Below are positions 518 to 5,228 of a DNA stretch of 64,000 bases, piece after piece. Made by a program: the position numbers and the translations under genes. Source of the DNA: Nitrospirota bacterium. GTDB taxonomy: Bacteria; Nitrospirota; Nitrospiria; JACQBZ01. Location of the stretch: NCBI GenBank assembly GCA_016201865.1, contig JACQCA010000019.1, positions 1 to 64,000 of the forward strand. The letters run 5' to 3'. The notes under the pieces are model-generated. The model worked only from the letters and a program-made list of their open reading frames with translations. It made no database searches and was not told the DNA's origin. Positions within the stretch are counted from its first letter, which is position 1; every line of letters starts with the position of its first letter.

Positions 518-1153
518 TTACCTCCGGATTGTTTTCGTCCTCCGCCCGTCGGACCGGAGGCGGTCCAATTGGGCACGGCGGAAGCAGTCGACCGTGTGAT
601 CGTTGACCATGCCCACGGCCTGCATATGGGCGTAGACGACGGTGGGGCCGAGGAATTTGAAGCCGCGCTGTTTTAAATCCTTCGCCCAGGCCACGGCCTC
701 ATCGGTATAGGGCGGATAATCTTTGAGGCTGCGGAAGCGGTGGAGGATCGGCCTGCCGTTCACCCACGACCACATGTAGGCGGCGAAGGAGCCGTGCTCG
801 CGCCGGACCTCCAGAAACCGTTGGGCGTTGTTGATCGCGACCTCGATCTTCTGCCGGTTGCGGATGATGCCGGCGTCTTTGAGCAGCAGTGCGACGTCGC
901 GCCGGCCGAAGCGGGCCACCTTTCGGTAGTCGAATCCGGCGAAGGCCTTGCGGAAATTCTCGCGCTTGTAGAGCACCGTGCGCCACGACAGCCCGGCCTG
1001 GAAGACCTCCAGCACCAGGAACTCGTAGATTTTGCGGTCGTCATGCACCGGCACGCCCCATTCCTCGTCGTGGTAGGCGAGATAGAGCGGCTCGCCCGCC
1101 GTGGGCCAGGGACAACGGATGAGGCGTGAGGGAGGCAGCATGGTGATGCTCAT
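518..1153 (-). CDS. tag: DNA-3-methyladenine glycosylase I
   Basis: 'RCPWPTAGEPLYLAYHDEEWGVPVHDDRKIYEFLVLEVFQAGLSWRTVLYKRENFRKAFAGFD' is typical of Tag. Confidence 0.93.
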   Translation of the reverse strand: MSITMLPPSRLIRCPWPTAGEPLYLAYHDEEWGVPVHDDRKIYEFLVLEVFQAGLSWRTVLYKRENFRKAFAGFDYRKVARFGRRDVALLLKDAGIIRNRQKIEVAINNAQRFLEVRREHGSFAAYMWSWVNGRPILHRFRSLKDYPPYTDEAVAWAKDLKQRGFKFLGPTVVYAHMQAVGMVNDHTVDCFRRAQLDRLRSDGRRTKTIRR

Positions 1154-2148
1154 GAGTCCATTTCGTCCGACGCACCGCCCGATCGCGCGAGGTCGTCCAT
1201 GCTGATCTTCGCGGGATCGAATCTGGCGGCGGTCTTGGTCATGCGGTCGATGACTTCATCGAAGCCGAGCGGTTCGGCCTCCTTCGGACGGAACCGGATC
1301 GGGTTGATTCGGGCGACGACGAAGCTTTTCAGATACGGACTCGTCAGCCCGCGGGCCTTTAAGGCCTCGACCTGTTTGGTTACGGCGTCATCCAGCGCGA
1401 GCAGGCGCAGCGCGCGGTCCTTTCGAACTGCCTGCGCCGTGCGGATGGATTGCTTTAAGAACTGATCCACGCGCCGAAGAATCGGATTGTACGCCCCGCC
1501 GGAAAAGCGCGGACGGTCTTCGTAGCAGAGGCCGAGCGTGATGAAGGCCGGCTCTTCGAACTCGATCGCGTAGGTTTCTTCATGGACGTCATCCAACCGC
1601 GCAAGCTCTTTGTACATCCGGACGACCTCGAGCGATTTTTCTCGGAGGTTGTGAGCCTTCTCGGTATTGAGCGCCAGGATCTGATAAGCCGCCGAAGCCT
1701 CCGGCACGACGATCGCGACGATGCTCTTCGCGCCGAGCGTCCGCATCGCCGAGAGGCGATGGTTTCCGTTGGGTGTCCAGTATTTAGTGGCGCCGCCGGT
1801 CTCGTTCCGGACCGCGATGATCGGATCGAGGAACCGGCCGAGCTTTCCGATCACGTTCTCGAGTTTCCGGACATGCATCTCGGAGATGTTGCGTTGGTAG
1901 GGCGTCGGCTCGACGATCCCGATCGGAAGCGCGGCCAGCACGAGCCAGTTCCCGCCGTACGGCTCGCGGTAGGCCGCGAGAACCTTCCCGCCGTCGGCCT
2001 CGATGGATCGATCCAACTCGGCCACTTCTCCAGGCGGCGCCGCGGCAAGAAGGTCCGGCGCGGCCAGTCCCACCGAAACACCGGCCGATTTCCGCCGTTT
2101 TTTAACCGCTCCCGCCGCTCGCGGCTTTTTGGGTTTCTTGTCGGGCAT
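1150..2148 (-). CDS. ParB/Srx-like nuclease-domain protein
   Basis: 'YQRNISEMHVRKLENVIGKLGRFLDPIIAVRNETGGATKYWTPNGNHRLSAMRTLGAKSIVAIVV' ParB-like core; no partner ParA nearby. Confidence 0.75.
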   Translation of the reverse strand: MPDKKPKKPRAAGAVKKRRKSAGVSVGLAAPDLLAAAPPGEVAELDRSIEADGGKVLAAYREPYGGNWLVLAALPIGIVEPTPYQRNISEMHVRKLENVIGKLGRFLDPIIAVRNETGGATKYWTPNGNHRLSAMRTLGAKSIVAIVVPEASAAYQILALNTEKAHNLREKSLEVVRMYKELARLDDVHEETYAIEFEEPAFITLGLCYEDRPRFSGGAYNPILRRVDQFLKQSIRTAQAVRKDRALRLLALDDAVTKQVEALKARGLTSPYLKSFVVARINPIRFRPKEAEPLGFDEVIDRMTKTAARFDPAKISMDDLARSGGASDEMDS

Positions 2149-3776: not shown

Positions 3777-4268
3777 GTGTGGCCCAAGATTTTTGGCGTC
3801 GTGGTATTTGTCGTCGCGCTGCCTCTGGCGGCCGTCGTGGTCGCGATCGCGATGAACCGGCCGATGGTATTCGATCCGCCCGGTTTTTCAAAACGGCTTG
3901 CGATCTATCTCCAGTACAATGTGGCCGAGACCACGGCCGATCCGCTCCTGCCCGAACTTCGCATCCGGCGGTATCGGGCCTCCGAGGAGGAAATAAAGGC
4001 GGCGGTCGAACAGGCGATCCGCTCTTTTCCCCGCTGGAGAATGATCCGGACCGAAAGGGATTTGGGCGCGTATCAGGTCGAGGCGACCAGCCTTCTGTGG
4101 CGGTTCCGGGATGACCTCTCGATTTTGGTAATCCGCTCCGCATCCGACGGAGTCGAGGTCTACCTCCATTCCGCATCGCGGGTCGGAGGCGGCGATCTGG
4201 GGGCCAACCGCGCCCGCATCATCGAGTTCTACGAGGCGCTTGAACGCGAACTTGGAAAAGGCGTTTAA
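3777..4268 (+). CDS. DUF1499-like protein
   Basis: N-terminal TM; 'FPRWRMIRTERDLGAYQVEATSLLWRFRDDLSILVIRSASDGVEVYLHSASRVGGGDLGANRARI' is DUF1499-like. Confidence 0.7.
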   Translation: MWPKIFGVVVFVVALPLAAVVVAIAMNRPMVFDPPGFSKRLAIYLQYNVAETTADPLLPELRIRRYRASEEEIKAAVEQAIRSFPRWRMIRTERDLGAYQVEATSLLWRFRDDLSILVIRSASDGVEVYLHSASRVGGGDLGANRARIIEFYEALERELGKGV

Positions 4269-4308: not shown

Positions 4309-4317
4309 TGGTATAAT
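4309..4317 (+). promoter_or_regulatory. extended -10 promoter element (TGG-TATAAT) upstream of the histone-like gene
   Basis: TGnTATAAT 52 bp before the ATG at 4369; no good -35, as expected for the extended -10 class. Confidence 0.55.
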
Positions 4318-4368
4318 CGGGTCCGTTTTTTCCAACAGTCCGAAAATTCACACCGAAAGGAGAGAAGG

Positions 4369-4554
4369 ATGGCGGATATTCTGGTGGTGGCGTCGAAAGT
4401 GAAGAAATTCATTCGGGAGAAGTCCGGGATGAATACCTCGGCCGAGATCCTGGAGGTCTTGAGTCAAAAGCTGGAGAAGATCTGCCTGGATGCGATCGAG
4501 AAGGCGAAGGCCGACGGTCGTAAGACGGTCAAAGGGCGCGATCTCGAGGGATAA
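4369..4554 (+). CDS. single-domain bacterial histone-fold protein (61 aa)
   Basis: MADILVVASKVKKFIREKSGMNTSAEILEVLSQKLEKICLDAIEKAKADGRKTVKGRDLEG; helix-loop-long helix-loop layout ending in 'A..DGRKTVKGRDL' matches the histone L2 RxTV and final KDL pattern; RBS AAAGGAGAGAAGG. Confidence 0.8.
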   Translation: MADILVVASKVKKFIREKSGMNTSAEILEVLSQKLEKICLDAIEKAKADGRKTVKGRDLEG

Positions 4555-4580
4555 CCGGTCCGCCCGCCTCAGGCGGGGGG

Positions 4581-5228
4581 TTAGTGGTCGAAATGCGCCC
4601 CGCAGCTGGGGCAGACGGGATCGTCCGGATCGCAGGCCTCACCGCAGGACGAGCAGAAATATTCCTCTTCATCCGCTTCATCGTCCAGGTCCAACTCCCT
4701 TCCGCATTCCGGGCAGATCTCATCCTCCGGAGCGACCTCGGAGTCGCAGGCCGCGCAGACGATCGTTGCTTCTTCGTCTTCCGCGAGAAATCGGTCTTCC
4801 TCTTTGTTCAGGGCATCCTTCTGGGCCTCCCAGTCCAGCAGCGCGCGGGCCTTCTCGACTTGGGAGAGGGGCGCCCGCACGACCACGCCGTCCAGATCGG
4901 ACGGCCGATCTTCCTCATCCAACCGATACTGAAACAAGAGGAGTTCATCATGCTCGATCCGGCATCGGATGCCTTCCTTTTCGAGGAAACGGGCCGCCTC
5001 TTTCATTTCGTTGAGTCGGCCGCGGAGGACCTCGATATGGGCCTCTTCGCGCGGGGCGGCGGCCGTTTTCTTGGGCGGTTTCGGTTTTGGAGAAGCCGTT
5101 CCTTTCGAGAGGCCGGGATGCTCGGTCCGGAGTTTGATCGCGGAAGGAGGAAGAAGTTCACGCCCGCATTTCGGACAGACCAGAATAGGGGATCGATACT
5201 TTTTATTACAATGGGGACAGATGAGCAT
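4581..5228 (-). CDS. multi zinc-ribbon protein with central DUF2007-like region
   Basis: CxxC pairs at the N-terminus (CPHC/CPKC) and two C-terminal ribbons (CAAC/CPEC, CSSC/CPSC). Confidence 0.7.
   Translation of the reverse strand: MLICPHCNKKYRSPILVCPKCGRELLPPSAIKLRTEHPGLSKGTASPKPKPPKKTAAAPREEAHIEVLRGRLNEMKEAARFLEKEGIRCRIEHDELLLFQYRLDEEDRPSDLDGVVVRAPLSQVEKARALLDWEAQKDALNKEEDRFLAEDEEATIVCAACDSEVAPEDEICPECGRELDLDDEADEEEYFCSSCGEACDPDDPVCPSCGAHFDH

Follow-up and report, generated by a model that had tools for sequence, protein, structure and literature searches.

We found that the window, a 64,000-nucleotide stretch of a Nitrospirota bacterium (contig JACQCA010000019.1), encodes a 61-aa histone whose best assignment, judged from its sequence and predicted fold, is to the α3 ‘bacterial dimer’ family, the type member of which is Bd0055/HBb of Bdellovibrio. 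We put the probability at roughly 0.88 that this is an architectural nucleoid protein, an α3 bacterial-dimer homodimer that would bind DNA non-specifically across minor grooves and bend it locally, beside HU and from its own promoter. Homodimerization, DNA binding, bending, a nucleoid role and abundance are all likely by analogy with HBb, and it is on this basis that we infer a role in chromatin.

The histone gene lies at 4369..4554 on the plus strand, running from an ATG at 4369 to a TAA stop at 4552–4554 as read directly from the sequence, and encodes a single histone fold of the bacterial-dimer (α3) type. The mechanically called ORF that covers it is 104 aa long and starts at TTG 4240. We rejected this start because the stand-alone-type Nitrospiria homologues all begin at an ATG equivalent to 4369, each with a ribosome-binding site just 5′ of it. 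In the window the ribosome-binding region is AAAGGAGAGAAGG (4356..4368, plus strand), and its AAGGAGA is present in most close relatives. The first-pass annotation had likewise preferred a 61-aa protein preceded by a ribosome-binding site to the 104-aa ORF; we read the same 61 aa, the homologue starts agree, and AAAGGAGAGAAGG was confirmed at the expected place. The match to Bd0055 (E = 2.7e-19) and the 83–90% protein identity in six relatives of the host’s own family, despite a synonymous divergence (pS) of 0.54–0.74, rule out a chance ORF, and the pN/pS values of 0.05–0.16 between members of that family indicate that the gene is under purifying selection. The protein has a pI of 9.2 (9.25 for HBb), and SGMNTSAEILEVLSQK is one of its tryptic peptides.

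Several comparisons converge on the same fold and the same relative. The window histone is 63% identical to Bd0055/HBb over 59 aa, and a PDB sequence search returned 8fvx and 8cmp at E about 3e-19 (the best, Bd0055, at 2.7e-19), the next solved relative being HLp at 3.7e-6. The histone-fold family PF00808 (CBFD_NFYB_HMF) matched with 22.7 bits, above its gathering cut-off of 21.4. An AlphaFold2 model of the single chain, built from a 37-sequence alignment, reached a mean pLDDT of 91 and placed α1 at residues 2–19, α2 at 25–48 and a short, one-turn α3 at 56–58. The five best PDB fold matches to this model were HBb chains (E 4e-5 to 1e-4, probability 1.00), followed by HTkC and HLp; superposition on HBb gave an rmsd of 2.2–2.9 Å and a TM score of only about 0.7 because the model is a single chain. 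The first-pass annotation had proposed one histone fold with the short layout of Bd0055, to be checked by structure prediction. The α1-α2-short α3 arrangement predicted for the single chain, the pLDDT and the PF00808 score agree with the first proposal, and the position of Bd0055/HBb as closest solved relative both by sequence and by structure bears out the second.

The features that define the bacterial-dimer category are likewise present. Clustering with Bd0055/HBb was seen by pairwise comparison, where the category’s authors used a CLANS map, and the AlphaFold2 model has the truncated α3 (3–4 residues) and short α2. The RKTxxxD motif and the RD clamp occur as R51-K52-T53-V54-K55-G56-R57-D58, of which R51, K52, T53, R57 and D58 are invariant or nearly so across the 37-sequence alignment. 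The dimer–dimer residues of face-to-face (FtF) histones, R48/N52 in the FtF logo and R49/N53 in HLp (PMC11390915; PMC12701072), are replaced by K45/D49, an absence that is less than absolute since K45 is a conservative change. An FtF assignment is disfavored by the lack of R49 and N53 (HLp numbering). We rejected a ZZ histone because the 61-aa chain begins at the histone fold with no N-terminal ZZ-type zinc-binding domain, and a DUF1931 pseudodimer histone because there is a single fold here, whose 20.2 bits fall short of the 21.8 cut-off.

Crystals and simulations of HBb assign its DNA contacts to T8, S9, K10, K12, K16, N22, T23, S24, A25, K52, T53 and R57 (PMC11317129). Ten of these 12 residues (S9, K10, K12, N22, T23, S24, A25, K52, T53 and R57) are identical in the window protein, the two changes being T8A and K16R. 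Both residues of the RD clamp, R51 and D58, are kept, as is the additional D49 of HBb. The dimer core retains V11 and L31 unchanged, with I35/L38/I59 conservatively replaced by L/I/L. A profile search detected a single histone in the host genome, so the dimer would be a homodimer. We envisage that two 61-aa chains pair head-to-tail through α2, and that the L1–L2 loops of the dimer grip the DNA backbone across minor grooves, with N22, T23 and S24 from one chain and K52, T53 and R57 from the other, while the start of α1 (S9, K10, K12) would contact DNA as well. The outcome, as in HBb, would be local bending without sequence preference, alongside HU. The retention of the HBb contact residues and the RD clamp, together with K45/D49 at the FtF tetramer positions, argues for such an HBb-like homodimer.

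The binding mode of Bd0055/HBb is itself contested, with end-binding in a straight sheath (Hocher 2023, PMC10627809) set against bending (Hu 2024, PMC11317129). The window histone could belong to the same family and yet act in the mode of Hocher et al., in which edge-on dimers coat unbent DNA and a hydrophobic N-terminus joins the dimers. Its N-terminus (MADILVV, against MAEVLVV) and all of the Bd0055 L1–L2 contacts are retained, and the 8FVX/8FW7 structures are related to it just as closely. However, S9 and K10, which belong to the second, bending interface of Hu et al. (PMC11317129), are retained too, and solution data on HBb favor bending (PMC11317129), making a sheath unlikely here.

Another alternative is a face-to-face tetramer that wraps roughly 60 bp, as HLp does in Leptospira. 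The window histone shares the α3 superfamily and 38% identity with HLp, other Nitrospiria copies carry R45, and one of them, L017, combines R45 with N49, the HLp tetramer residues R49/N53 (PMC12701072). Against this, the window protein has K45/D49 at those positions, D49 being the HBb residue, and HBb is far closer at 63% identity; we consider a tetramer very unlikely.

Expression of the proposed DNA-bending dimer would start at an extended −10 element, TGG-TATAAT (TGGTATAAT, 4309..4317, plus strand). The TATAAT is conserved upstream of the histone ATG, occurring 5′ of the gene in 7/7 members of the host family (f1) and in family f4, with TATATT in f8. Most relatives pair it with TTGAC-type −35 hexamers 16–19 bp upstream. 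No canonical −35 was found ahead of the window histone, where a scan returned 0 promoter-like sites and the best candidate, TATACT, matches at 3/6 positions with a spacing of 17 bp. The label ‘extended −10’, which the first-pass annotation had used, is thus the right one for this promoter, and the window copy, with its poor −35, would rely on that element. The promoter sequence may point to constitutive expression, as the first-pass annotation suggested. Sequence and conservation together suggest that the histone has a sigma-70-type promoter to itself, which would probably yield a short transcript. By raw CAI the histone heads the 56 ORFs, but its codon adaptation, with amino-acid composition controlled, gives only p = 0.04, which supports high expression weakly and carries no weight in our reading. 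Downstream, between the two convergent genes, a GC-rich hairpin (4560..4580, no strand assigned; stem CCCGCC-TCA-GGCGGG) was weighed as a possible Rho-independent terminator and rejected, being weak (z only −0.67) and without a T run. In some relatives, L003 and L007 among them, GC-rich inverted repeats can be picked out visually between the genes.

Two neighbors, neither part of the proposed mechanism, adjoin the histone in 7/7 family members. Upstream lies a DUF1499 protein (3777..4268, plus strand; Pfam PF07386), 67–71% identical in six relatives; convergent with the histone lies a protein with Pfam zinc ribbons (4581..5228, minus strand), 60–64% identical in six relatives. The latter shows repeated CxxC pairs and a weak, below-cut-off likeness to the NCBIfam ‘zinc ribbon-containing (seleno)protein DG’. 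In those relatives’ stretches that reach far enough, the zinc-ribbon gene is followed by a DUF2231 and/or RRM protein and AlgH. Elsewhere in the window, an RNA-binding protein of the RRM type (PF00076; 5969–6346, plus strand) that has a glycine-rich tail shows 86–89% identity to its counterparts in relatives across the part that aligns, a conservation above that of the other neighbors, and a 332-aa protein (1150–2148, minus strand) has a lysine-rich start and looks ParB-like by eye, with no Pfam match.

This conserved setting within f1, and the patchiness of the histone across the class, could be taken to mean that a histone-fold protein has been recruited to a job outside chromatin, as a local regulator or complex subunit for instance. 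We find this extremely doubtful: the DNA-contact residues are kept except for two, the histone has its own promoter, and nothing evident ties the neighbors to it functionally, the DUF1499–histone–zinc ribbon arrangement not being found in the examined loci outside f1.

Across Nitrospiria, the histone was found in 20/190 genomes of 90% completeness or more and, with less complete genomes included, in 7/15 sampled families (f1, f3, f4, f7, f8, f9 and f11); the host family has it in 7/7 genomes seen. The two best-sampled families, f2 and f12, yielded none; these class-wide absences come from draft genomes searched in six frames. Across the phylum, a profile search covering 399 genomes (173 genera) yielded none outside Nitrospiria. 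Weak six-frame PF00808 matches in G134 and G140 (f2) and in G025 (f10) fell below cut-off, were unconfirmed by A1 profile or P0001 searches, and were left out of the counts. Since most sampled Nitrospiria genomes lack it, the histone is no general requirement of the class. HU/IHF-family genes are present in 190/190 of these genomes, with three in the host, so the histone comes on top of HU, and we reject its having replaced HU. That the gene is a binning contaminant or a recent transfer into one metagenome-assembled genome, as a draft of 97 contigs and the patchiness of bacterial histones might suggest, can be dismissed, being refuted by synteny in independent assemblies (L027–L030), with all 7/7 family genomes sharing the gene context at 83–90% identity and high synonymous divergence, and a histone GC of 55% that fits the 57% of the window.

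In a gene tree the sequences group largely by family; with only 61 columns, it resolves neither the deep order nor vertical descent against transfer. L017 (1501–1680, plus strand), with R45 and N49 at the positions of HLp R49/N53, is otherwise close to the dimer type. It is conceivable, and in our judgment quite unlikely, that bacterial-dimer histones have long been inherited in Nitrospiria beside HU and that tetramer-type residues (R45, or R45 and N49 in L017) arose on a dimer backbone; if so, Nitrospiria would offer a natural series covering the transition from a DNA-bending dimer to a DNA-wrapping tetramer. Separately, two Nitrospiria genomes (G033 and G029) carry a second histone (L025, 1501–1980, minus strand; L026, 1501–1980, minus strand) whose N-terminal domain, unrecognized by Pfam, has a stretch rich in Cys and His (CSVSTCRRKTTGLVFC...CWDAHLGFANHR); these resemble the ZZ histones described for Proteobacteria. 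ZZ-like histones also occur in MAG records titled Bifidobacterium breve (L035) and Klebsiella pneumoniae (L038), which group in the gene tree with uncultured proteobacterium and Myxococcota bins, suggesting that the two organism labels are probably wrong.

The fold and family are already known, and what is probably new is the Nitrospirota lineage for bacterial-dimer histones. Schwab et al. 2024 (PMC11390915) assign these chiefly to Bdellovibrionota, Elusimicrobiota, Spirochaetota, Planctomycetota, Myxococcota_A and Chlamydiota. Nitrospirota are unnamed in the main texts, as distinct from the supplements, of Schwab 2024, Hocher 2023, Hu 2024 and Hu 2025, and a literature search outside supplementary tables found no Nitrospirota histones and nothing relevant for Manganitrophus and histone. 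With only two bacterial histones, HBb and HLp, studied in structural detail so far (PMC12701072, PMC13260811), the window adds a close HBb relative, conserved family-wide, from an uncultured lineage; those relatives of the host that have record titles are Nitrospirae/Nitrospiria bacteria, all uncultured and most of them from groundwater, which places the host in that class. Its occurrence in Nitrospiria detaches the HBb-type histone from Bdellovibrio’s predatory life cycle, and the 20-odd natural variants, together with the histone-free families of the class, provide material for testing what a histone contributes where HU is present.

Set beside known histones, the window protein has the histone fold, the RKT motif and the RD clamp in common with archaeal HMfA/HMfB, from which it differs by a shorter α2 and a one-turn α3, at 28–31% identity in structural alignments. 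ZZ histones have a closely related histone domain preceded by an N-terminal zinc-binding domain that the window protein lacks. The face-to-face histones HLp (Leptospira perolatii) and HTkC (Thermococcus) share its α3 superfamily, truncated α3 and SKVK and RxT motifs, yet are only 35–38% identical to it, and it has K45/D49 instead of the HLp tetramer pair R49/N53. The closest counterparts are the α3 ‘bacterial dimer’ histones Bd0055/HBb of Bdellovibrio bacteriovorus (PDB 8FVX, 8FW7, 8CMP, 9EZZ, 9F0E), which have in common with the window histone their length class, the RKTVxxRD motif, the RD clamp, D49, the N-terminal S9-K10, the short α2, the one-turn α3 and an A48 where archaeal histones carry the tetramer histidine; the window histone is set apart from them by T8A, K16R, K45 where they have S45, and its Nitrospirota host.
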